From positions 1-32,546 of the forward strand of contig CALCSG010000553.1 in NCBI GenBank assembly GCA_937894085.1: 32,546 nucleotides of DNA, read 5' to 3'. Source of the stretch: an uncultured Gammaproteobacteria bacterium (GTDB lineage Bacteria; Pseudomonadota; Gammaproteobacteria; GCA-001735895). The notes below the pieces were generated by a model. It saw only the letters and a program-made list of their open reading frames with translations. It searched no databases and was not told where the DNA came from. Made by a program: the position numbers and the translations under genes. Below are positions 4,620-17,917 of this stretch, piece by piece (the first letter of the stretch is position 1; each line of letters starts with the position of its first letter).

Positions 4620-6764
4620 ATGGCTCAAAGCAGCATCACCCAGAGGTTTATTCTATGTATTGTACTGATGTTGTTAGTCAGTGGGGTATATAGCAGTGAT
4701 TTGTCCGAGCGTCAGATTACAAACCTGTCTTCGTCAGAACAACTTAATGGCGATTTCGATGCGATAAAAAAGCGTGGTAAATTGCGCATTATCATTCCGG
4801 CCAATATAGGAGGAGGTCGGTATCTGCCACGTAACGGTTCACCGGTTAGCGAACAACATGAAATAGTCGAAGCTTTTGCACAGTTCCATCATTTAATTCC
4901 AGAACTGATTATTGCTGAAAATTTTGGCGATATGATTCCCGCACTGGCTGACGGGCGTGCTGATATTGTTGCAGGTAATTTAACTATTACTGAGGCTCGT
5001 CGCAAAAATATAGAATTTTCCATCCCTCTGGCGCATGTACGCGAAAAAATTCTGGTACAAAAAACTGATAAAAGTATTCAGACAGTGGCTGACTTAAATC
5101 ATAAACGGGTCATGGTTTCCAGTGATTCTACTTTCTGGGATGCTTTACAGTGGCTAAAGAAGAATAAATATAAAGACATTCAATTACTGGCCAGACCGGC
5201 AGGTATGCTGGATGAAGAAGAGCTCGACCTGCTGGCCAAAGGTGAAATTGATGCGACCATACGCGATAGTAATATCGTCGATATGTATTCTGGATACAGA
5301 GATGATTTTAAGGTCGCCACCAACTTTAGTGGACAAAGAGATATCGCCTGGGGGGTACGCAAGGAGGCGCCAGGCCTGTTATTAGCGCTAAATGAGTTCT
5401 TACAGCTGGAGCACATGACTGCTGACGACAGTGAGTTTTCTACCGATGGTTTCGATAGCATTAAAAAACGTAAAGTGTTACGAGTTTTGCTCAGAAATAA
5501 TGCTTCATCCTATTTTTTATACAAGGGAGAATTGCTTGGTTTTGAATATGAAATGGCAAAAGCATTTGCCAAATTTCATGGTTTACGTCTGCAAGTGATT
5601 GTGCCACCGACACATAAAGAACTGCTCGGTTGGCTGGTTGACGGAAAAGCCGATCTGGCTATTGGTTTTCTGGAGCCGACAGCCAGACGCAAAGCGCTGG
5701 GTATTGAGTTTTCTGAACCTTATAACTATGAATCACAACATATAGTGGTTAATGGCAAAAGCACTATAAATAAATTGCAGGATCTGGATTCGCACACGAT
5801 CAGTGTCAGGAAATCGAGTGCTTACTGGGAAACCCTAACGAAACTTAAACAGTCGGGCAGCAGGTTTACCTTAAAACCTGCTCCTGAAGATGTGGAAACT
5901 GAAGAACTGATTAAGGCCGTTGGTTCTAAAAAAATTGATTTAACTATGGCCGATGAGCATATTCTGGATATAGAGCTGGCAAAATCTGTACCGGTAAAAT
6001 CGGCTTTTACAATTGGAGAAAAACGTCCTCAGGCAGTTGCTATACGCAAACATAATAAAAAATTAATTAATGCGATTAATGCTTTTATAAAAAAAAATAA
6101 TAAAAGTGAATATTATAATGTGCTGTATAAAAAATATTTTAAAAGTCGAAAATCAATCTTAAAACTGGCTAAAGGACGCATCCACAATATCGGCGAAAAT
6201 AATTTGTCACCGTGGGATAATATAACGCGCAAATATGCAGAAAAATATGGTTTTGACTGGCGCTTGATTACCGCCCAAATGTATCAGGAAAGTCGCTTTG
6301 ATCCTAAAGTGAAATCGTTTGCAGGTGCAAAAGGATTGATGCAGTTGATGCCACAGACTGCCAAGTCGGTTGGGGTTACAAATCTTGAAAAACCGGAAAA
6401 TAGTATCAGGGGCGGGATAAAATACATGGACTGGTTACGTGACAGGTTTGATGAAAGCCTGCATGTTTCAGAGAGGTTGTGGTTCACGTTGGCCGCTTAT
6501 AATGCAGGGTATGGTCATGTGCAGGATGCTCAACGGCTGGCCAGTAAAAAAGGCTGGGACAAAAAACGCTGGTTTGATAATACAGAAAAAGCGATGTTGT
6601 TATTGTCCAGAAAAGATTATTCCAGTAAAGCAAGATATGGCTATGTGGATGGAGATGAACCGGTTCAGTATGTGAGAAGTATTCGTGACCGTTTCGAAGC
6701 GTATGCAAAACTTAATCAGAATAAAATATCACAACAGAACAGTTTAATTATTGCGCGCGAATAG
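4620..6764 (+). CDS. MltF-like lytic transglycosylase with two solute-binding domains
   Basis: A 714-residue envelope protein. An N-terminal hydrophobic signal (about residues 8-24) is followed by two tandem family-3 periplasmic solute-binding domains (about 50-262 and 280-510) and a C-terminal SLT-type lytic transglycosylase domain (about 530-665). Each binding domain starts with the same pattern (FDAIKKRGKLRI at 46, FDSIKKRKVLRV at 278), which suggests an internal duplication. The transglycosylase domain has the catalytic glutamate in QESRFDP (Glu557), the GLMQLMPQTA block (572-581) and AYNAG (626-630), so it is likely active in cleaving peptidoglycan to 1,6-anhydromuropeptides. E. coli MltF has one binding domain, so this is an extended relative. 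No lipobox cysteine is seen after the signal. The start is ATG 4620 with a poor Shine-Dalgarno. It appears to be transcribed alone. Confidence 0.88.
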   Translation: MAQSSITQRFILCIVLMLLVSGVYSSDLSERQITNLSSSEQLNGDFDAIKKRGKLRIIIPANIGGGRYLPRNGSPVSEQHEIVEAFAQFHHLIPELIIAENFGDMIPALADGRADIVAGNLTITEARRKNIEFSIPLAHVREKILVQKTDKSIQTVADLNHKRVMVSSDSTFWDALQWLKKNKYKDIQLLARPAGMLDEEELDLLAKGEIDATIRDSNIVDMYSGYRDDFKVATNFSGQRDIAWGVRKEAPGLLLALNEFLQLEHMTADDSEFSTDGFDSIKKRKVLRVLLRNNASSYFLYKGELLGFEYEMAKAFAKFHGLRLQVIVPPTHKELLGWLVDGKADLAIGFLEPTARRKALGIEFSEPYNYESQHIVVNGKSTINKLQDLDSHTISVRKSSAYWETLTKLKQSGSRFTLKPAPEDVETEELIKAVGSKKIDLTMADEHILDIELAKSVPVKSAFTIGEKRPQAVAIRKHNKKLINAINAFIKKNNKSEYYNVLYKKYFKSRKSILKLAKGRIHNIGENNLSPWDNITRKYAEKYGFDWRLITAQMYQESRFDPKVKSFAGAKGLMQLMPQTAKSVGVTNLEKPENSIRGGIKYMDWLRDRFDESLHVSERLWFTLAAYNAGYGHVQDAQRLASKKGWDKKRWFDNTEKAMLLLSRKDYSSKARYGYVDGDEPVQYVRSIRDRFEAYAKLNQNKISQQNSLIIARE

Positions 6765-8309: not shown

Positions 8310-9803
8310 TTAACTGGCATTTACCTGTGCGCTCATTGATAGTCTCATGGATGATCTTAAGTAGCGTGATAGAGTATCGATGCAAACATTTAACAGCGCA
8401 GTGATGGTGATTAACATCATGGCCCGATCGAGCCGGATATCCTGAATAGCACTGTCGATATAAAACCCCAGGGTGGCGATTCCTAAAATTCCCAGAATGG
8501 CTGTCTCGCGCAAAATAATTTCCCAGCGGTAAAACAGGAATGCCAGGAACTGGCCATAGATTCGAGGTACCACTTCGTAAAAATATCGATTGAAACCTTT
8601 TGCCGCATCCTGGCGTATAGGCAGAGCATCGCTATAACGACCCATCAGGTGAGCGATAATAGCCCCGTTATGCAGAGCCAGCGCAATGATAGCCGGTAAC
8701 ATTGATGGCCCCCACAGGGTCAATAGAATGAATGCAAGAATATATTCCGGTGTAGAACGCATGACTACCAGAAAAAGATGTCCCGCACTACGCGCAAATC
8801 GAGCAAAAAATAATTTAGAAATTAATGGAAACCATATAAGAGCAATAAATCCGGTCAGAATCAGGGCTAGCTGAGTTAATAATAAACTGTTAACAATACC
8901 GGGCAGAGCCTCGTTCATGAATAGTTCAGAAAACCAGTGCCAGAGTCCGTTTAAATCCTCTCCCCGACGTATCGGTAGAGGGATAATGTCATGGGTGAAA
9001 AATCTAATGACATTGTCAAATGAAATGCTGCTGTCATTGGCGATGATGAAAGGTGAAGCAACCAGGTACAGGGGTAACAGTTTCGGTCTAACCCAGTATT
9101 TGATGCCGGCAATTAACAGGTAAAAAAGAATTAATAAAGCCCAGACTTCTGAATACAGTCCTTCATAAAAGGCAGTACTCAGGTAATAACCTAATGTGGG
9201 CAGCCCGACAAAACCCAGCACGGCACTGGAACGTAAACCACATTCCAGGCGGTAACTGGTATAGGTGATAAAGTGTTGCCACAGGTCGGGTAATCTGGCG
9301 TAAAAAAAAGAAGAAGTAAGGCCTGCACTGTGGCGAATGTTGTCATATGCCCGACGATCACCTTCTTCCAGAATTTCTGCATACACTTTGGCAAAAGTGG
9401 CAGCATAGGGCAGACCAATGGCGAGCAATCCTGTCAACGGGTGTAAGCCGAATATTTGCAAAAAAATTAAAGCCCAGAATAATTCATGAACAGCACGAAC
9501 TAAAGCGCAGAGTATTCTAACCAGTCGAAAATGAAATAACTGTGCCAGGACAAAACCGCTGATGCATCCGGCCGAAACTCCGAGCATGGCAAAAGCGACG
9601 GTTTGCAATAGCGCATGTAACGGGTTTTCAATATTGAATAGTGACGGTGATAACAGGCCGGAAAACAATCGCCCCAGTTCAGACATCGGGTCATAGGTGT
9701 TTATCGACAGGTCTGCGAAAGGCAGGCAGGCCAGGGCTATGGCTATAAAAATCCAGCTTACTTTCCATCGGGCTGAACGTATATGGCTTAGACCTTTATT
9801 CAC
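8310..9803 (-). CDS. PhnE-like ABC transporter permease, two fused permease domains (putative selenium oxyanion importer)
   Basis: A 497-residue inner-membrane protein made of two consecutive binding-protein-dependent permease domains (about 1-255 and 285-497), each with several hydrophobic segments. Standard PhnE proteins are about 260 residues and dimerise; here both halves are one chain. Corresponding segments of the two halves can be matched: SYRLECGLRSSAVLGFVGLP with FYRWEIILRETAILGILGIA, and RAVHELFWALIFLQIFGLHP with RSTPEYILAFILLTLWGPSM. The start is GTG 9803, overlapping the ATPase gene by 8 bp, so translation is probably coupled. It is the last gene of the order binding protein, ATPase, permease. 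No carbon-phosphorus lyase or phosphonatase gene is present, while the neighbours are selenium genes, so selenate or selenite is a more likely cargo than phosphonate. Substrate is inferred. Confidence 0.85.
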   Translation of the reverse strand: MNKGLSHIRSARWKVSWIFIAIALACLPFADLSINTYDPMSELGRLFSGLLSPSLFNIENPLHALLQTVAFAMLGVSAGCISGFVLAQLFHFRLVRILCALVRAVHELFWALIFLQIFGLHPLTGLLAIGLPYAATFAKVYAEILEEGDRRAYDNIRHSAGLTSSFFYARLPDLWQHFITYTSYRLECGLRSSAVLGFVGLPTLGYYLSTAFYEGLYSEVWALLILFYLLIAGIKYWVRPKLLPLYLVASPFIIANDSSISFDNVIRFFTHDIIPLPIRRGEDLNGLWHWFSELFMNEALPGIVNSLLLTQLALILTGFIALIWFPLISKLFFARFARSAGHLFLVVMRSTPEYILAFILLTLWGPSMLPAIIALALHNGAIIAHLMGRYSDALPIRQDAAKGFNRYFYEVVPRIYGQFLAFLFYRWEIILRETAILGILGIATLGFYIDSAIQDIRLDRAMMLITITALLNVCIDTLSRYLRSSMRLSMSAQVNAS

Positions 9804-10446
9804 CGTAGAGTTCTAACAGGTCTTCTCGTTTGAGGTTTTTAGCGGCCTCATCAATAGTAATTCGTCCATGATCGAGGCCGATGATACGGTCGCAATAGGC
9901 CAGCGCCAGGTCAATATCGTGCATGGCAAGAACAACAGTGTCAAAGAGTCTGCATAATAGTGACATCACCAGTTTAGACTGTTGCTCATCAAGTGATGAA
10001 ACGGGCTCATCGGCCAGCAAAATATCGCCACCCTGCATAATCGCCCGTGCTATTGAAGTTCGTTGCTGTTGACCACCGGATAGTTGAGCGACCGGTTCGA
10101 ACAGTTTGTCGCTCAACTGCATTTCCTGCAGTATCTGTTCAACTTCAGCAACCGGCTTTTTAAGTGGTTTGATTAAATTGAGCAGGTTGTAGCCGACAGA
10201 TTGCCGACCCAGCTGGCCCATGTAGACATTGTGATATACCGAGAGACTGGCAACCAGCCCATAATCCTGTGGTACCAGCGCGATATCTTTCGGGCGTTGT
10301 TCATAAAGCAGTTTAATAAGTGTCGATTTACCGGAACCACTGTGCCCCACCAGTGCCAGCTTCTGGCCGGCAGGAATGTGCAGGGTAATATCAGTCAGCA
10401 CAATTTCATCTTTATACGAGGCATTGGCTGACTGTAGATTAAACAC
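9796..10446 (-). CDS. PhnC-like ABC transporter ATPase (putative selenium oxyanion importer)
   Basis: A 216-residue cytoplasmic ATPase subunit. Walker A is GHSGSGKST (residues 34-42), the Q-loop is VPQD (Gln60), the signature is LSGGQ (122-126), Walker B is ILLADE (142-147) and the H-loop histidine is in MHDID (His176). All catalytic features are intact, although the protein is shorter than typical PhnC (about 250-260). The start is GTG 10446, ten bases after the binding-protein stop codon. It overlaps the permease gene by 8 bp. It should power the importer formed with the flanking subunits. Confidence 0.9.
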   Translation of the reverse strand: MFNLQSANASYKDEIVLTDITLHIPAGQKLALVGHSGSGKSTLIKLLYEQRPKDIALVPQDYGLVASLSVYHNVYMGQLGRQSVGYNLLNLIKPLKKPVAEVEQILQEMQLSDKLFEPVAQLSGGQQQRTSIARAIMQGGDILLADEPVSSLDEQQSKLVMSLLCRLFDTVVLAMHDIDLALAYCDRIIGLDHGRITIDEAAKNLKREDLLELYGE

Positions 10447-10456
10447 CAGATCAGGA

Positions 10457-11338
10457 CTAGTCGATTAAGCCGATTTCCTTAGCGGTATCAAGGATGGGCT
10501 GGTAATCATTATTGCTGGCCTTGATGAAACTGCTGCGTGGAAAAGCTTCCAGTAGTGCCGGGTCTTTCATATCCAGCAGGGCTTGCTGAACACGCGCCTT
10601 AAAGCCTTCTCCCCATTCTTTATCAACATCTCCGCGAATGGACCATTGATAGTCAGGATAAGCGGGAGTTTTCCAGATTACAGAAACTTTACTGCCATCA
10701 ATTTTTCCGTCTTGCATTTCCTTTTCCCATACTTTGTAATTAGTTGCACCAACCTGATAAGCACCGGTTTGTACCAGTGCAATTGTGCGTGAGTGATTTC
10801 CACTGAACCCGACACGTGAAAAAGTATCATCCGGGGATTTTTTTAAATATTCACGAATATAAAACTCAGGCATTAATCGACCAGAAGTCGAACCTTTTGA
10901 GCCGAATGTGAAGGTTTTTCCGGCAATATCGGCGGGGAATGCTGCGGACTCTTTTAGCCCTGTACTGTGATGAGCAATAAAGTACGTTACGAACTCTGTG
11001 TCTTCCTTGCCCTGGGCAATGGCTTCAGAACCGGGCACCAGTAGACGCGCACGTACACCGGATAATCCGCCAAACCAGGCCAGTTGAATCTGATTATTTC
11101 TAAACGAAGTGATGGCCGCCGAATACGATTTGACCGGTACATATTTTACCGGAATACCCAGTTGCTGAGTAAGGTAGTCGGCTACTTTCCCAAATCGCTT
11201 GATTAACTGAGATTGATCCTGGTCGGGAATGGCAGAAAATACCAGTGTTTTTGGTGCACTGTATACCTGGGTAGAAAAAGAGATGGCCAGTATTGACAGG
11301 CAAAAAAACTGAGTAATACGATTAATTTTTGTTTTCAT
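10457..11338 (-). CDS. PhnD-family periplasmic binding protein (putative selenate-binding type)
   Basis: A 293-residue secreted binding protein. Residues 1-28 form a typical signal peptide with probable cleavage after VYSA. The mature part has the PhnD-family layout: VFSAIPDQDQSQL, then YLTQQLGIPVKYVPVKSY, NNQIQLAWFGG and FTFGSKGSTSGRLMPEF. Family members bind tetrahedral oxyanions such as phosphonate or phosphite. A subfamily found near selD genes is described in protein family collections as putative selenate-binding. This gene sits with senB, senA and selD, which supports that role, but the ligand is not proven. The ATG at 11338 has a strong AAGGAG box (11345-11350, minus strand), so this subunit is probably the most abundant product of the operon. 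Confidence 0.88.
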   Translation of the reverse strand: MKTKINRITQFFCLSILAISFSTQVYSAPKTLVFSAIPDQDQSQLIKRFGKVADYLTQQLGIPVKYVPVKSYSAAITSFRNNQIQLAWFGGLSGVRARLLVPGSEAIAQGKEDTEFVTYFIAHHSTGLKESAAFPADIAGKTFTFGSKGSTSGRLMPEFYIREYLKKSPDDTFSRVGFSGNHSRTIALVQTGAYQVGATNYKVWEKEMQDGKIDGSKVSVIWKTPAYPDYQWSIRGDVDKEWGEGFKARVQQALLDMKDPALLEAFPRSSFIKASNNDYQPILDTAKEIGLID

Positions 11339-11554
11339 TTAAGACTCCTTTTAGTGTTTTTAATTATTTACCTGAATCCGTAGCTTCAGGTATTGCCCCA
11401 TAAATAATATAAGTTTTCTGGCAGATAAAAAACGTTATCTTTCATGAGGCTAAACAGTAACTGCTTTTTAACTTGCTGTGCTTGATAGTGATCAGCATGG
11501 CAATACAATATTGCTGAGTCATATTGCTAGCTTTTTCATACTAAATATCCTGCT
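11339..11554 (-). promoter_or_regulatory. Leader region of transporter operon with several dyads
   Basis: The 216 bp between senB and the binding-protein gene are long enough for a separate promoter. They contain a dyad with arms ACCTGAA (11370-11376) and TTCAGGT (11385-11391) in the leader, a dyad GATAA (11424-11428)/TTATC (11435-11439), and one just after senB with alternative pairings TCAGCA/TGCTGA (11492-11517) or GCAATA/TATTGC (11500-11514). None has a T-run, so none is a clear intrinsic terminator. A regulatory role is only suggested. Confidence 0.35.
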
Positions 11555-12502
11555 TTATAATTTATTTAGAAGTTGCCGCCAGCCGTTTAGTTCATTATCT
11601 GTGGTGAATAATGGCTGTCTGGCGATACAGGCCTTTTCTAACTGGTTATAAAATTTGTGATCTGACTCTGCTTTTAGCAGAAGTTCTGATAATGCCTGCT
11701 CATCTTCAACCGGATAATATCCCGCATAGTCTTCTCCGAGTAAGCCGATCGAACCTTCTATATTGGAGGCGATGACCGGAATACCTGCCACTATTGCTTC
11801 CGAGATGACATTGGCTCCGCCTTCCATCCGTGAGGGTAGCAGCAGCACATGAGTGCGTTGATAAACCTGTCGAATTTTGTGATGTGCAATTTCCCCATGC
11901 CAGTGATAGCGGGAATTTATTCGCATCTCTGCTGTGGCCTGTTGTGCCCACTCAGCTGAATGCGCCTTGCCAAAATGATGAACCTGGATACGACTGCTGG
12001 CAGGCAGATTGCGTACTGCCATGGCAGGTCTCATGGGGTCTTTTTCTTCGCGTAAATGACCCATTACTGATACGTGAAAATAGCGTTTGTATGGATTACG
12101 TTTAGCGACAGGTTCGGCAGACTGATGAATGACATGCATTTTATGCCGTTGATCTGCGGGCAGGGTATTGTTGATTAAATCATGCAGCCCCACCAGTTGA
12201 TGTGCCAGTCGAATGGATTGCAAAGTGGGTTGCGGGTGACTATGGATGAAACGATAGGCATCAGTACCGGTGATAGCGACAATTAACGGCCGATGCGGGA
12301 ACCGTTCAGCAAACAGTTGAATGGAGTCGGCACTACGCCAGGCATGTAAAGCCAGCATCATATCAGCAGTCTGGTTTGTATAGGACACACTGATTTCGAC
12401 TGTATGTCCTAATGTCCTGAGTATATGTGCCCAACGGGCGGCAGTGGCCCGGTTGCCTGCTCTGGAGCGGGGTGGAGCAGGTGTGATAAGAAGTATGCGC
12501 AT
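11555..12502 (-). CDS. senB: Selenosugar synthase SenB (glycosyltransferase-like)
   Basis: A 315-residue GT-B-fold protein of the family first catalogued as a selenium-associated glycosyltransferase and later shown to be SenB, which forms a carbon-selenium bond by joining selenophosphate to a UDP-sugar. The N-terminus MRILLITPAPPRSRAGNRAT carries the SRxGNR segment typical of this family. The C-terminal half has the nucleotide-sugar binding motif PSRMEGGANVISEAIVAG (Glu227 and Glu235) and GIPVIASNIEGS. The frame extends upstream to 12541, but the ATG at 12502 gives the conserved N-terminus. It is divergent from senA with 121 bp between the starts. The assignment rests on motif pattern plus the senA/selD context. 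Confidence 0.9.
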   Translation of the reverse strand: MRILLITPAPPRSRAGNRATAARWAHILRTLGHTVEISVSYTNQTADMMLALHAWRSADSIQLFAERFPHRPLIVAITGTDAYRFIHSHPQPTLQSIRLAHQLVGLHDLINNTLPADQRHKMHVIHQSAEPVAKRNPYKRYFHVSVMGHLREEKDPMRPAMAVRNLPASSRIQVHHFGKAHSAEWAQQATAEMRINSRYHWHGEIAHHKIRQVYQRTHVLLLPSRMEGGANVISEAIVAGIPVIASNIEGSIGLLGEDYAGYYPVEDEQALSELLLKAESDHKFYNQLEKACIARQPLFTTDNELNGWRQLLNKL

Positions 12503-12623
12503 TGTTTTATTATTAACCTTACCTTCGGCTAACCATATCATAAATAATCGTCAGGATGACATCCGTTCCACAGCATGGGACAATGGCTTTCATACTTTTA
12601 GCCAACAAATTTTAAAAAGCTGT
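12503..12623. promoter_or_regulatory. Divergent senB/senA promoter region
   Basis: These 121 bp separate the start codons of senB (minus) and senA (plus), so both promoters should lie here. Overlapping short dyads occur at GTCA-GGA-TGAC (12550-12560) and GGAT-GAC-ATCC (12554-12564), near the middle. GGCTAA (12527-12532) and TTAGCC (12598-12603) form a widely spaced inverted pair. No consensus promoter could be fixed with confidence. Confidence 0.4.
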
Positions 12624-13925
12624 ATGGATAAACTGAATCCCATCGTTATCGCTGAACAGGCGCAGGATGCACATTGTCGCACATTAGCATTAATCGAAGG
12701 ACTGGATGCCGAACAGTTAATGGGGCCGTTGCTGGCAACGGTAAACCCGTTGCGCTGGGAAATAGGGCATGCAGCATATTTTTATGAATACTGGGTCCTG
12801 TGCCATCACCTGCAGCAACCATCGATTCGTGAAGATTCTGATGATTTGTATGATTCAATCACTATCGCCCATGATGATCGCTGGAATTTAGCGTTACCTG
12901 AACTGTCAGAAACATTGAATTATATGCAGACTGTGCTGGAAAATATAAAGCAATGTCTTGCTGGCGGAGAAGATGCCAGGCGCGATTACCTGGCGTTATA
13001 CGCTGTATTTCATCACGATATGCATAACGAAGCCTATACCTATACCCGGCAAACCCTGAATTACCCGACTCCTGATTATGGCGGGGATAGCAGTAACAAT
13101 TATCAGGCCGGTGCGCTACCGGGTGATGTGCAAATACCCGGTGGACGCTTTAAGTTAGGGGCAACAGCAGAGGATGGTTTTGTTTTTGATAATGAGAAAT
13201 GGGCGCATGAAGTCGATATAAAACCATTTGGCATTGCAAAAGCAGCGGTCAGTAATGCTGATTTTTTGAAATTTGTGGAAGCAGGTGGCTATAACAATAA
13301 ACAATACTGGCTGGATGAAGGCTGGAAATGGCGCGAAAAATCAAACCTGGCGCATCCTGTGTACTGGCGTAATACTTCATCAGGCTGGGATATAAAGCAG
13401 TTTGATCAATGGAACCCGATGCCGGTGAATGCAGCAATCATTCATGTAAGCTGGTTTGAAGCACAGGCTTACTGTCGTTGGGCCGGAAGACGCTTGCCGG
13501 GCGAAGCGGAATGGGAAGTGGCAGCTTCAGCAGAAGCAAGTCTGGATGGAAAAAAATTATCGGCCAGTAAACGACACTTTCCCTGGGGAGATGAAGCTCC
13601 CCGTGCTGATCAGGCTAACCTGGACGGATACGCACTCGGAACAGTGGATGTTGCTGCATTTCCAGCCGGTGACTCGGCTTTTGGCTGCCGACAGATGATC
13701 GGCAATGTATGGGAATGGACAGAGGACAGCTTTAATCCCTATCCGGGATTTAAAGCGGATATGTACCAGGATTATTCGCAACCTTTATTCGGCATTACCA
13801 AAGTTTTACGTGGAGGGGCCTGGCCCACACGTGGCAGAATGATTAGAAATACCTGGCGCACCTACTATGGCCCCGATAGAAATGATGTTTTTGCCGGTTT
13901 TCGTACCTGTGCCCTGAATGAGTAG
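12624..13925 (+). CDS. senA: Selenoneine synthase SenA (EgtB-like)
   Basis: A 433-residue iron enzyme of the EgtB/OvoA/SenA superfamily. SenA couples the selenosugar from SenB to hercynine and leads to selenoneine. The N-terminal DinB-like domain has the three iron-ligand histidines: His49 in EIGHAAYFYEYW and the HX3HXE motif HHDMHNE (His130, His134). The C-terminal formylglycine-generating-enzyme-like domain (about 165-433) shows HVSWFEAQAYCRWAGRRLP, GNVWEWTEDSF and LRGGAW. The frame is open to 12444, but that part runs through senB; the ATG at 12624 starts the conserved domain, although no good Shine-Dalgarno is present. It is called SenA rather than ergothioneine EgtB because of the adjacent senB and selD and the absence of egtA, egtC and egtE. 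The sequence alone would allow EgtB. It overlaps egtD by 8 bp. Confidence 0.88.
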   Translation: MDKLNPIVIAEQAQDAHCRTLALIEGLDAEQLMGPLLATVNPLRWEIGHAAYFYEYWVLCHHLQQPSIREDSDDLYDSITIAHDDRWNLALPELSETLNYMQTVLENIKQCLAGGEDARRDYLALYAVFHHDMHNEAYTYTRQTLNYPTPDYGGDSSNNYQAGALPGDVQIPGGRFKLGATAEDGFVFDNEKWAHEVDIKPFGIAKAAVSNADFLKFVEAGGYNNKQYWLDEGWKWREKSNLAHPVYWRNTSSGWDIKQFDQWNPMPVNAAIIHVSWFEAQAYCRWAGRRLPGEAEWEVAASAEASLDGKKLSASKRHFPWGDEAPRADQANLDGYALGTVDVAAFPAGDSAFGCRQMIGNVWEWTEDSFNPYPGFKADMYQDYSQPLFGITKVLRGGAWPTRGRMIRNTWRTYYGPDRNDVFAGFRTCALNE

Positions 13926-14904
13926 CAGACCATTGAGAAAAAATAAAATACAGTTTCATGATTTACATACCAGTCGCAACGAATTCGCCAGCGATGTTTT
14001 AAAGGGGCTGAGTGTTCGCCCGGCATCGATACCACCGAAATATTTTTACGATGCCAAAGGCTCAAAATTATTTGATGCCATTACACAATTACCTGAATAT
14101 TATCCAACTCGCACCGAGATAGATCTTTTATCAAATAACGCAGCACAAATAGCCCGACACGTTGGAACCGGAAGTTTACTGGTTGAGCCGGGTGGTGGTA
14201 GTTGTGCCAAAGTACATATTTTACTGGAAGGACTGAAACCCCGGGCATACGTGCCGATGGATATTTCCAGGGATCACTTGCAGCTGGCGGCAGAAGAGCT
14301 GGCTATTGCCTTTCCATGGCTGGAAATCCATGCTGCCTGTACCGATTTTACGCAGGAAATGTCATTACCGCCGAGTGCGCCCAGGGGCACACATGTCGCG
14401 TTTTTTCCGGGTTCCAGTATAGGTAATTTTGATCCTGATGCTGCGGTCGTATTTTTACAGGCAATAGCTGAATTAGTGGGACCGGGAGGCTACCTGTTAA
14501 TTGGTGTAGATCTGAAAAAAGACAAGGCAATACTGGAAGCGGCTTATGATGATTCAGCTGGCATAACGGCTTCATTTAATTTGAATTTACTGTCGCGTAT
14601 AAATCACGAGTTAAATGCTAATTTTGATTTAACAAAATGGCGACATAAAGCGTTATATAACGAACAGGTTGGTCGTATTGAAATGCATCTGGTAAGTCAG
14701 CAGGATCAAACTGTGGAAATCAATGAGGATTCTTTTAGTTTTGTTGAAGGTGAAACTATTCATACCGAAAATTCGTATAAATATACCAGTGATGAATTTA
14801 TCAGGCTGGCTTCGAAAGCCGGTTTTCAATCGGATGAGTTATGGATAGATGGAAATCGTTTATTCAGTGTGCATCTGTTCAGGGTTAATGATTTGCAGCG
14901 CTAA
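13918..14904 (+). CDS. egtD: L-histidine N-alpha-methyltransferase EgtD
   Basis: A cytoplasmic SAM-dependent enzyme that trimethylates histidine to hercynine, the acceptor in ergothioneine and selenoneine synthesis. It has 328 residues, near the usual 320-330. The family start PPKYFYDAKGSKLFDAITQL and EYYPTRTE (residues 39-67) are present. The SAM-binding loop is LLVEPGGGSCAKV (about 87-99), followed by FPGSSIGNFDP and GGYLLIGVDLKKD. The start ATG 13918 lies inside the end of senA, an 8-bp overlap that implies translational coupling. Its place between senA and the selD fusion makes hercynine supply for selenoneine its evident job. Confidence 0.96.
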   Translation: MSSRPLRKNKIQFHDLHTSRNEFASDVLKGLSVRPASIPPKYFYDAKGSKLFDAITQLPEYYPTRTEIDLLSNNAAQIARHVGTGSLLVEPGGGSCAKVHILLEGLKPRAYVPMDISRDHLQLAAEELAIAFPWLEIHAACTDFTQEMSLPPSAPRGTHVAFFPGSSIGNFDPDAAVVFLQAIAELVGPGGYLLIGVDLKKDKAILEAAYDDSAGITASFNLNLLSRINHELNANFDLTKWRHKALYNEQVGRIEMHLVSQQDQTVEINEDSFSFVEGETIHTENSYKYTSDEFIRLASKAGFQSDELWIDGNRLFSVHLFRVNDLQR

Positions 14905-14956
14905 CAATTGATAAAATTCCAGGGTAAAGTTCCGGTCAAATAAACAGATATAAACA

Positions 14957-17218
14957 ATGAAAAGTAATAATTCTCCCGTAGTAAAAGATCTGGTGCTGAT
15001 TGGTGGCGGTCATGCGCATGTTGCTGTGTTAAAACGTCTAGGCATGCAACCTGTCCCGGGGTTAAGAATTACCCTGGTTACACGCGATATTCATACACCA
15101 TATTCCGGCATGTTGCCGGGTTATGTAGCCGGTCATTATAGTTATGATGATTGTCATATTGATCTTGGTCCGCTGGCAAGATTTGCCGGAGCACGTCTAT
15201 ATCATGCACCGGTAACAGGCCTTGATATCAAAAATAAACAGGTGCTGGCTGCGGGTCGGCCAGCTATCAATTACGATCTACTTTCCATTAACACCGGCTC
15301 AAGACCCGATAGTGTCAATATTCCGGGTGTTGATGAATTTGCCATAGCAGCTAAACCCATCGATATCTTTTTAACAAAATGGGAGGCGCTGATCGAGCGC
15401 GTAAGCAATAGCCAGGGTGAATTTAAAGTCGTCGTAGTGGGCGGTGGAGCCGGTGGTGTCGAACTGGCATTATCCACACAGCACCGTTTACAAAACATGT
15501 TACGTGAGCAGGGTGACGATCCTCAACGATTGAGTTATACCCTGTTAACGCAAAGTGATCGTATCATGCATATGCATAATGGCGGAGTGCGGGACCGTTT
15601 TGAGCGCATATTTAGTGAGCGTGATATCTCTATTAAAGTTAGAAGTAGAGTGGCTGAAGTTAAAGCCGATCAGGTATTGCTGGATGATGGCACTGTATTT
15701 TCTACTGATGCGATTATATGGGTGACTACGGCATCCGCCCCTGCCTGGCCTGCTGAAGCGGGACTTTCCGTCGATGAAAATGGTTTCATCCGGGTCGATA
15801 AAAACCTGCAATCACTATCACACGAAGGTATTTTCGCAGCGGGTGATATTGCTTCGCTGAAAGATCCCAGGCCAAAATCCGGTGTTTTTGCGGTCCGTCA
15901 GGGACCGGTTTTAGTGCATAACCTTAAAGCTGCTGCGACTCACAAAAGGTTAAGGCCATATCGACCGCAAAAGAATTTTCTGGGACTGATTAGTACCGGG
16001 GACAAATATGCTATCGCATCACGCGGGAATTTTTCGTTTGAATCAGCCTGGTTGTGGAAAGTTAAAGACTGGATTGATGTGCAGTTCATGAGAAAATTTA
16101 ATGAATTGCCTGACATGGATGAACAGGATAATCCCCGCTTTGCCTCGGGTATAGCCGATGCGGATGCGATTAAGGAGCTTTCAACGCTGGCAATGCGCTG
16201 TGGTGGTTGCGGTGCCAAAGTGGGTGCCACCATTTTATCCAGGGTCATGCAAAGGTTACCCGATGAAAAACGTGATGATGTATTGATCGGCAGAGATTCA
16301 CCGGATGACTGTGCCATGCTGGCAGTACCACCAGGCAAGGTCATGGTACAAAGTGTGGATTATTTTCGCGCTTTTATCGAAGATAGCTATACATTCGGGG
16401 CCATAGCGGCTAACCATGCACTTGGAGATGTATTTGCGATGGGTGGAGAAGCTCAGTCGGTACTGGCTATTGCGACGGTTCCCTACGGTCGTGAACGGGT
16501 GGTGGAAGAAACATTATATGATGTGATGGCTGGAGCCATGTCAATAATTCAACCCAGTGGAGCGGTATTAGCTGGTGGACATTCCAGTGAAGGGGCCGAA
16601 CTTGCTTTTGGTTTGACGGTGAACGGCCTGATCGACCCGAACAGAGTCTGGCGTAAGAGCGGATTACAACCGGGTGATGCAATTATTTTAACCAAGGCTA
16701 TCGGCACTGGTACCTTATTTGCTGCAGAAATGCGCGGTAAAGCGAAAGGCCGTTGGGTTGATGCTGCCATACAGTCCATGCTGGTTTCCAGTCAACAGGC
16801 CGCTGAATGCCTGCAGCGGTTTAATGCCACGGCCTGCACAGATCTGACCGGCTTTGGTATCATCGGGCACCTGATCGAAATGACAAAAGCTTCTCAGGTT
16901 GATGCAGAGATTTATATGGATAACTTGCCATTACTGGATGGAGCAATGGAAACTGTGGCTGCCGGTATCCTGTCTTCGTTACAGCCTGCTAATCTTCGCT
17001 TGCGTCGGGCCATTCATGATATTGAAAATGCAGCAAAGCATCCAGCTTTTCCACTGCTATTCGATCCGCAAACCGCTGGCGGTTTACTGGCCGGTGTACC
17101 TGCTAAAAAAGCAGAAGCCTGCGTAGCAGAACTAACAAAACTGGGGTATACAAACACCCGCATAATTGGTAGTGTAAACGATTTATCTGATGAGCAGGCA
17201 CCTGTGCAAATAAAGTAG
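14957..17218 (+). CDS. selD: Fused NADH-type FAD oxidoreductase - selenide, water dikinase (SelD/SenC)
   Basis: A 753-residue two-domain protein. Residues about 10-385 form an NDH-2-like pyridine-nucleotide oxidoreductase: the FAD dinucleotide loop is LIGGGHAHVAVL (14-25), the NAD(P) loop is VVGGGAGGVELAL (160-172), and FAAGDIAS (293-300) is the second FAD contact. Residues about 408-753 are SelD, which makes selenophosphate from selenide and ATP. The SelD active site is CGGCGAK, with Cys418 and Lys421 matching Cys17 and Lys20 of E. coli SelD. The residue is cysteine (TGC), not selenocysteine. SPDDCAML and GGHSSEGAE follow as expected. Such fusions are known, and the oxidoreductase part is thought to supply reduced selenium. 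In a sen cluster the SelD protein is also called SenC. It lies 52 bp after egtD, probably in the same operon. Confidence 0.95.
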   Translation: MKSNNSPVVKDLVLIGGGHAHVAVLKRLGMQPVPGLRITLVTRDIHTPYSGMLPGYVAGHYSYDDCHIDLGPLARFAGARLYHAPVTGLDIKNKQVLAAGRPAINYDLLSINTGSRPDSVNIPGVDEFAIAAKPIDIFLTKWEALIERVSNSQGEFKVVVVGGGAGGVELALSTQHRLQNMLREQGDDPQRLSYTLLTQSDRIMHMHNGGVRDRFERIFSERDISIKVRSRVAEVKADQVLLDDGTVFSTDAIIWVTTASAPAWPAEAGLSVDENGFIRVDKNLQSLSHEGIFAAGDIASLKDPRPKSGVFAVRQGPVLVHNLKAAATHKRLRPYRPQKNFLGLISTGDKYAIASRGNFSFESAWLWKVKDWIDVQFMRKFNELPDMDEQDNPRFASGIADADAIKELSTLAMRCGGCGAKVGATILSRVMQRLPDEKRDDVLIGRDSPDDCAMLAVPPGKVMVQSVDYFRAFIEDSYTFGAIAANHALGDVFAMGGEAQSVLAIATVPYGRERVVEETLYDVMAGAMSIIQPSGAVLAGGHSSEGAELAFGLTVNGLIDPNRVWRKSGLQPGDAIILTKAIGTGTLFAAEMRGKAKGRWVDAAIQSMLVSSQQAAECLQRFNATACTDLTGFGIIGHLIEMTKASQVDAEIYMDNLPLLDGAMETVAAGILSSLQPANLRLRRAIHDIENAAKHPAFPLLFDPQTAGGLLAGVPAKKAEACVAELTKLGYTNTRIIGSVNDLSDEQAPVQIK

Positions 17219-17313: not shown

Positions 17314-17364
17314 GCCTACCAGCTGACCTGTCTCGTGTCGTCTATTTATGCGCTCAGTACAGGA

Positions 17365-17394
17365 CACTACACTACACTACACTACACTACACTA
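17365..17394 (+). repeat. (CACTA)6 microsatellite
   Basis: Six perfect tandem copies of CACTA occupy 30 bp and end ten bases before the start codon of the exonuclease gene, directly abutting its GAAGG ribosome-binding box (17395-17399). Perfect 5-bp repeats of this kind can change length by slippage. Confidence 0.97.
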
Positions 17395-17404
17395 GAAGGC
17401 AGGG

Positions 17405-17917
17405 ATGATGTTTAGCAGGGAATTTATTCCTATTATTATCGACATAGAAGCTTCCGGTTTCGATCCACTCAGTTACCCGATAGAAGTAGGTCTCGTACTC
17501 GAAAATGGAACCCGCTATTCTACTCTGGTTAAACCCGTTACGGAATGGCAACACTGGGATAGTAGCGCAGAGAGACTTCACCATATACAACGCGAAACTT
17601 TGCAACAATATGGCAAGCCGGTGATGGAAGTTGCGCTTAAATTGAACCAGTTACTGGATGGTAAAACGATTTATTCTGACGGTTGGGTAGTTGATAAACC
17701 GTGGCTGGATAATCTGTTTTTTCGGGCGGGCATTGATCGTTCATTTTTTATCAGTCCTCTTGAGATGATACTGAATGAACAGCAGATGGAGTACTGGCAT
17801 GAAATTAAAAATACGGTGATTGCTGAAACAGACCTGCAACGTCATCGTGCAAGTAGTGATGCCTGGGTCATTCAGCAAACTTTTGTACGCACTTTAGCTT
17901 TACTGAACACTGCTTAA
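17405..17917 (+). CDS. DEDDh-type 3'-5' exonuclease (RNase T / DnaQ-like)
   Basis: A 170-residue protein with the exonuclease fold of DnaQ and RNase T. Motif I is IIDIEASGFDP (Asp13, Glu15). Motif II is probably in YSDGWVVDKPW (Asp92 or Asp97). Motif III is HRASSDAW (His147, Asp152), the H-x4-D spacing of DEDDh enzymes. It probably trims DNA or RNA 3' ends, but the substrate cannot be read from the sequence. Two ATGs (17405, 17408) are possible; GAAGG at 17395-17399 serves either. The (CACTA)6 tract directly upstream could alter expression. There is no clear terminator after it; TTAGCCTG/CAGGTTAA (17930-17949) is a weak hairpin followed by TTTT. Confidence 0.85.
   Translation: MMFSREFIPIIIDIEASGFDPLSYPIEVGLVLENGTRYSTLVKPVTEWQHWDSSAERLHHIQRETLQQYGKPVMEVALKLNQLLDGKTIYSDGWVVDKPWLDNLFFRAGIDRSFFISPLEMILNEQQMEYWHEIKNTVIAETDLQRHRASSDAWVIQQTFVRTLALLNTA

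Follow-up and report, generated by a model that had tools for sequence, protein, structure and literature searches.

We analysed a 32,546-nucleotide stretch of DNA from an uncultured gammaproteobacterium (GenBank assembly GCA_937894085.1, contig CALCSG010000553.1). This stretch, here called the window, makes up an entire contig from a host genome of 6.02 Mb that is assembled in 567 contigs with 4% contamination. Seven genes within positions 8310-17218 encode SenB-, SenA-, EgtD- and SelD-type proteins together with a PhnDCE-like ATP-binding cassette (ABC) importer (Table 1). Taken together, these genes likely constitute a locus that makes selenoneine, a selenium-containing antioxidant, from histidine, that supplies the precursors itself and to which an importer of oxyanions is linked. 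For the enzyme steps, this proposal rests on family membership, conserved residues, tree position and co-occurrence.

Organization of the locus

Family calls were made with curated NCBI models (TIGR and NF) and their cut-offs. The scores of the enzymes and of the binding protein are far beyond chance, and all seven genes lie where an initial annotation of this DNA had placed them. Its grouping of these proteins in one locus was likewise borne out by curated matches, although PhnC (TIGR02315) and PhnE (TIGR01097) fall below their equivalog cut-offs and show family resemblance only. PhnC carries a Walker A motif (GHSGSGKST at 34), LSGGQQ at 122 and ADEP at 145, and PhnE is a tandem fusion whose permease halves are 26% identical over 134 residues.

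The initial annotation had described an apparently self-contained unit. Enzymes for activation, selenosugar formation, hercynine formation and coupling are indeed encoded together, but in two divergent transcription units. The minus strand carries senB-phnD-phnC-phnE, the plus strand senA-egtD-selD. The two 8-bp overlaps that it reported are real (senA/egtD, 13918-13925; phnC/phnE, 9796-9803). Because the family match begins at ATG 12502, this codon is the likely start of senB; a GTG-started senA open reading frame (ORF; 12444) overlaps senB, and the likely senA start is ATG 12624. These starts leave a gap of about 121 bp between the diverging units, where a promoter scan found promoter-like matches at chance level only. 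An Rfam search of the window gave no match. Adjacent senB and senA genes are divergent throughout the surveyed loci, the exceptions being two Gemmatimonadota metagenome-assembled genomes (MAGs; L164 and L190) in which they share a strand, and the divergent arrangement is a layout common to these loci that does not amount to one operon. The nearest surveyed relative belongs to this genus too, and all seven genes recur there with their order unchanged.

Table 1. Genes and intergenic region of the selenium locus, in window coordinates.
Feature	Position	Strand	Evidence and remarks
phnE-like permease	8310..9803	-	497 aa, two permease domains fused; TIGR01097 195 bits in two stretches (cut-off 216.7)
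phnC-like ABC ATPase	9796..10446	-	Pfam ABC_tran 1.6e-25; TIGR02315 166 bits
Periplasmic substrate-binding protein, TIGR04553 'putative selenate ABC transporter'	10457..11338	-	381 bits (cut-off 250); PhnD1-like oxyanion pocket
senB, predicted selenosugar synthase	11555..12502	-	TIGR04348 413 bits (cut-off 300); ORF open upstream to 12541
Intergenic gap, senB/senA	12503..12623		Presumed promoter region for both units, from gene layout
senA, predicted selenoneine synthase (iron-dependent, C-Se bond-forming)	12624..13925	+	NF041186 495 bits (cut-off 420); motifs, tree position
egtD, predicted histidine N-alpha-trimethyltransferase (to hercynine)	13918..14904	+	TIGR03438 411 bits (cut-off 291)
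Oxidoreductase-SelD fusion (SenC role), 753 aa	14957..17218	+	TIGR03169 491 bits (cut-off 310); TIGR00476 291 bits (cut-off 125)

Assignment of the biosynthetic enzymes

The sen pathway of Variovorax paradoxus comprises three genes, SenA, SenB and SenC (Kayrouz et al. 2022, as described in PMC10891094, PMC9814287 and PMC10702425). Like that cluster, the window locus holds homologues of selenophosphate synthetase, selenosugar synthase and selenoneine synthase side by side, all three over their cut-offs. It differs in that its SenA is 34% identical to the Variovorax protein, its SelD is fused to an oxidoreductase, and egtD and a PhnDCE-type importer lie in the locus. The initial annotation considered it fuller than a senABC core, which is correct as regards egtD and the importer, but such fuller sets are not unique and recur in several genera and phyla.

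The initial assignment of SenB as a selenosugar synthase was upheld. The protein matches the SenB structures 8jjn, 8fbx and 8k5u, passes the family cut-off, and retains N20, T23, H58, R61, T83, T85, R155, K158 (catalytic) and E231 of Variovorax SenB, with K158, N20, T23 and E231 making up the catalytic set. Where Variovorax SenB has EGGAHV, the window protein has EGGANV; position 235 of SenB contacts the C4 of the sugar, and mutants there retain partial activity. In the selD fusion, TIGR03169 covers residues 11-381 (the oxidoreductase) and TIGR00476 covers residues 413-718 in the C-terminal half, where Cys418 and Lys421 align with the active-site Cys17 and Lys20 of Escherichia coli SelD. The fusion scores 473 on TIGR04369 ('fusion_not_SelD'), under the cut-off of 700, and we class it as a SelD.

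The window EgtD can be aligned with its mycobacterial counterpart (structures 4uy7 and 4pim) over nearly the whole length. In a co-occurrence survey of 369 genomes of the class, SenA exceeds its cut-off in 23, and EgtD does so in all 23 of these as against 123 of 369 (33%) overall (p 2e-12). One SenA-positive genome (G107) carries the Variovorax-type SenA, and in two others (G185 and G250) the SenA is the only EgtB-like match. Counting the window, eight loci have egtD among the sen genes or next to them. This co-occurrence is the best available evidence for hercynine as the acceptor.

The specificity of SenA required closer consideration, as the solved structures nearest to it are those of the selenoxide synthase OvsA, 8ux5 (E 2e-96) and 8u41 (9e-95). 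EgtB (4x8b) and Variovorax SenA follow at E values of about 1e-67 to 1e-69, the scores being 327 bits for OvsA, 237 for EgtB and 231 for Variovorax SenA, and identity to OvsA is 41%. OvsA reportedly, in work by Kayrouz et al. from 2024, forms ovoselenol on histidine, as against selenoneine on hercynine. If the window enzyme were an OvsA, the product would be ovoselenol, the main competitor of selenoneine here and one that the initial annotation did not raise. Its motifs, however, are of the SenA type. In our motif table, EgtB proteins carry HEQQH or close forms; OvsA proteins, including 15 from Marinobacter and Tamilnaduibacter, carry HQNMHIES or close forms, FMSTLQF and YRQAY; and Variovorax SenA and the window clade carry HxxMHxEA, YSxP and mostly (W/Y)RN. 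The window protein has FHHDMHNEAYTY, YQDYSQPLF and TWRTYYGPDR, and none of the three OvsA motifs.

A maximum-likelihood tree of 70 proteins agrees with this assignment. All selenium enzymes separate from EgtB (94/91), and OvsA proteins form one clade (100/100), outside which window SenA falls in a clade of 14 (100/99) whose members mostly retain the SenA motifs. The window clade and Variovorax SenA lie on the same selenium branch, within which the branching order is poorly supported. In addition, OvsA occurs together with a relative of window SenA in one genome (G218), where some 1.2 kb and a selD separate their genes, which marks the two as distinct enzymes. With egtD overlapping senA in the window, and on the strength of motifs and tree, we rejected the ovoselenol reading and hold it to be very improbable. 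OvsA and window SenA thus share a superfamily but differ in clade and motifs, and in the presence of egtD at the window locus.

A true EgtB, making ergothioneine, would account for the adjacent EgtD and for a match of 318 bits to the EgtB model TIGR03440. That score is below the cut-off of 360, the protein lacks HEQQH, SenB and SelD adjoin it, and the tree places it apart from EgtB, so that we give this alternative almost no credence; the initial annotation's expectation that SenA would cluster with neither EgtB nor OvoA was confirmed. An egtB-egtD ergothioneine operon such as that of Halomonas sp. KO116 (L236) resembles the locus in having an EgtD gene directly after an EgtB-family gene. Its EgtB carries HEQQH, and there is no SenB or SelD within the annotated stretch retrieved.

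The SenA model NF041186 fails to separate SenA from OvsA, since against a cut-off of 420 it gives 424-442 bits to Marinobacter OvsA proteins and 414 to OvsA 8u41. The proteins passing it in Marinobacter and Tamilnaduibacter (L197-L211) are OvsA by motif and tree, and their annotation as SenA is likely wrong. Marinobacter loci in which SenB and SelD occur and SenA is missing were considered as a possible new selenosugar user; this was rejected because 20 of the 22 genomes checked have a SenA-model match elsewhere, which in Marinobacter and Tamilnaduibacter is OvsA by motif. In Marinobacter similis (G408:C1:3879419-3880742) the SenA/OvsA match is split across several reading frames, indicating a broken gene or a sequencing error. 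The locus of G218 mentioned above (L101, G218:C4:76001-96000) holds OvsA, a separate SelD, SenA, a fused SelD, SenB and phnDCE within 20 kb, with two SelD genes and an apparent capacity for both ovoselenol and selenoneine.

From these assignments we propose the following pathway. The PhnDCE-type transporter would import a selenium oxyanion, most likely selenite, which would be reduced to selenide, perhaps aided by the oxidoreductase half of the fusion. The SelD half is predicted to produce selenophosphate, and SenB to transfer selenium to a UDP-sugar, giving a 1-selenosugar. EgtD would convert histidine to hercynine by trimethylation. In a reaction that uses iron and O2, SenA would then couple hercynine and the selenosugar to form a selenoxide; loss of the sugar and reduction would yield selenoneine.

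The TIGR04553 importer

The solved structures closest to the window binding protein are those of PhnD1 from Synechococcus MITS9220 (7s6g) and Prochlorococcus MIT9301 (5lq5), which themselves exceed the TIGR04553 cut-off at 338 and 302 bits. PhnD1 contacts its ligand through two Tyr residues, one of which caps the site, an STS motif, a His and an Asp that serves as acceptor (PMC10284923, PMC5700983). The window protein retains this pocket (Y72, S150-T151-S152, H182, D229 and Y230) along with the cap residues D39 and N200. The two systems thus have TIGR04553 and the ligand-contact residues in common. The picocyanobacterial phnDCE genes are reported beside tesA and not beside selenium genes, and the measured ligand is phosphite, which PhnD1 binds best, followed by phosphate and methylphosphonate (PMC10284923, PMC5700983). 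Yet PhnD1 strains do not grow on phosphite, nor are the phnDCE genes induced by phosphate starvation (PMC10284923, PMC5700983), and for these reasons the role of PhnD1 is unexplained. The main text of the paper on growth and induction makes no mention of selenium.

The genomic association of TIGR04553 points towards selenium. In the survey of the class, the family exceeds its cut-off in 15 of 369 genomes, 10 of which have SenA (p 3e-10); SelD is present in 15/15, compared with 87/369 (24%) overall (p 1e-10). We then counted SelD, SenA, SenB, SelU and SelA genes within 10 kb of 80 named TIGR04553 loci from a GTDB contig scan, with 20 loci of other PhnD proteins as the control. A selenium gene was found at 52/80 of the former and 0/20 of the latter (Fisher p 3e-8). 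The 80 loci were chosen as the top matches to the query, close relatives included, and not at random, so that the p-values overstate independence. Two further loci end within the oxidoreductase half of a fused SelD. For the 26 loci without a clear selenium neighbour, SelD is over its cut-off in 24 of the genomes, and the other two are MAGs.

The contexts themselves vary. Full sen sets occur in proteobacteria and Gemmatimonadota MAGs, and two loci have SelA. Marinobacter loci (L160, L165-L188) resemble the window in placing a TIGR04553 importer beside SenB and a fused SelD, and differ in that the C-Se enzyme is OvsA, encoded elsewhere in the genome. Other loci have SelD and SelU beside phnDCE with no sen gene (L134, L145, L146, L149, L153, L155, L159, L170, L184, L189 and L191), and the family is therefore tied to selenouridine users as well. 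The common factor of these contexts is SelD, not any single product. In a Halomonas locus (L187, 7702-9852), a fusion protein made up of a VTT membrane domain and a MerA-like FAD oxidoreductase is encoded directly upstream of the TIGR04553 binding protein.

The transporter could instead import phosphite, phosphate or phosphonate and merely adjoin the selenoneine genes. Consistent with this are the ligand preference of PhnD1, whose pocket residues are identical, and one locus (L137, ~8674-9792) where a TmpA-like 2-trimethylaminoethylphosphonate dioxygenase lies directly upstream of a TIGR04553 member, a possible counter-example to selenium specificity. Against it stand the near-constant presence of SelD, the control loci, the failure of PhnD1 strains to grow on phosphite, and the C-P lyase subunit PhnJ, which was not found in the host and is present in only 1/15 TIGR04553 genomes. 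We consider this explanation unlikely, though it deserves more weight than those set out for SenA. That the importer carries some selenium oxyanion is probable on the strength of the association. The initial annotation's dedicated selenium transporter accordingly keeps its genomic support, but its specificity is a matter of association only, as the relatives measured bind phosphite and no family member with measured selenium binding came to light.

Selenite at seawater pH is, like phosphite, a three-oxygen pyramidal anion, and hydrogen selenite and hydrogen phosphite share this geometry. The same pocket should therefore prefer selenite over the tetrahedral selenate, and selenite is our best guess for the substrate. 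The NCBI name of TIGR04553 shows that its curators suspected a selenium role, and a survey from 2016 remarked on an ABC ATPase in the neighbourhood of orphan selD genes. According to reviews from 2022 and 2026 (PMC9312934, PMC13188914), prokaryotes have no known selenium transporter that is both specific and of high affinity. We put at about even the chances that TIGR04553 PhnDCE, the picocyanobacterial systems included, is this missing dedicated selenite importer, common to users of selenoneine, ovoselenol, selenouridine and selenocysteine. If so, the affinity for phosphite would be an isosteric accident.

Selenium use in the host and wider implications

The initial annotation proposed a genome search for selA, tRNA-Sec, selU and egtB, among other genes, and of these four only selU was found (SelU, 319 bits; cut-off 220). 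SelA was not detected in the host genome, and eight weak matches to the tRNA-Sec model, all below the cut-off, sit on ordinary tRNAs according to ARAGORN, which led us to reject selenocysteine use. Neither OvoA nor an EgtB-type gene beyond the window was found in the host; the other FGE-sulfatase proteins were set aside as lacking the EgtB/SenA layout. Only one SelD was found, the other AIRS-family genes being read by length and sequence as ThiL, PurM and two HypE. These host absences are strong but not absolute, because of the contamination and the fragmented assembly. With SelA, tRNA-Sec, EgtB and OvoA not found and SelU present, selenium in this organism most likely goes to selenoneine and tRNA selenouridine and not to selenocysteine. 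The initial suggestion that it goes to a small molecule in preference to selenoproteins fits the missing SelA and tRNA-Sec, but selenium is not reserved for that molecule, since the host has SelU.

Several points weigh against our reading of the locus: the fragmentation of the host assembly, the phosphite preference of the importer's nearest characterised relatives, the 34% identity between the window SenA clade and the assayed Variovorax enzyme, and a Thr in window SenA, shared with five relatives, at a position that is mostly Asn in other SenA and EgtB proteins. The last two, with the poorly supported grouping of the window clade and Variovorax SenA, would also suit a related but different selenium metabolite, such as another regioisomer or a sugar-retaining product. 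We regard this as improbable, given that EgtD in every SenA genome points to hercynine and that most clade members keep the SenA motifs. Selenoneine is thus the product that we favour.

The term 'island' used in the initial annotation found no support. The flanking genes look ordinary, no recombinase was seen among those scanned, and variation in guanine-plus-cytosine content is mild. Divergent senB-senA pairs do occur on plasmids of Methylorubrum populi (pMPOP01, L232) and Hydrogenophaga (pBPS33-1, L238), one with a transposase gene directly after senA and one in a chromate/arsenic resistance region, which indicates that sen genes can move. Elsewhere in the window, an (ACACT)n repeat of about six units (17364-17394) lies just upstream of an exonuclease-like ORF (17405-17917), and a single protein (4620-6764) has two family-3 solute-binding domain stretches followed by a transglycosylase (SLT) domain.

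The selenoneine pathway was already known; what the locus adds is a set of genes that extends beyond the core, and further support for a testable hypothesis about the importer. Selenoneine would be expected more widely, in those gammaproteobacteria, alphaproteobacteria and Gemmatimonadota MAGs where hercynine synthesis and uptake are encoded side by side. Because the NCBI SenA model also captures OvsA, selenoneine producers and ovoselenol producers may be mistaken for one another. The larger point of the locus is the importer, whose family recurs beside several bacterial selenium pathways (SenA, OvsA, SelU and SelA clusters). The locus singles out TIGR04553 as one candidate for the missing transporter that can be tested by binding assay, and ties that question to the unexplained PhnDCE of picocyanobacteria.

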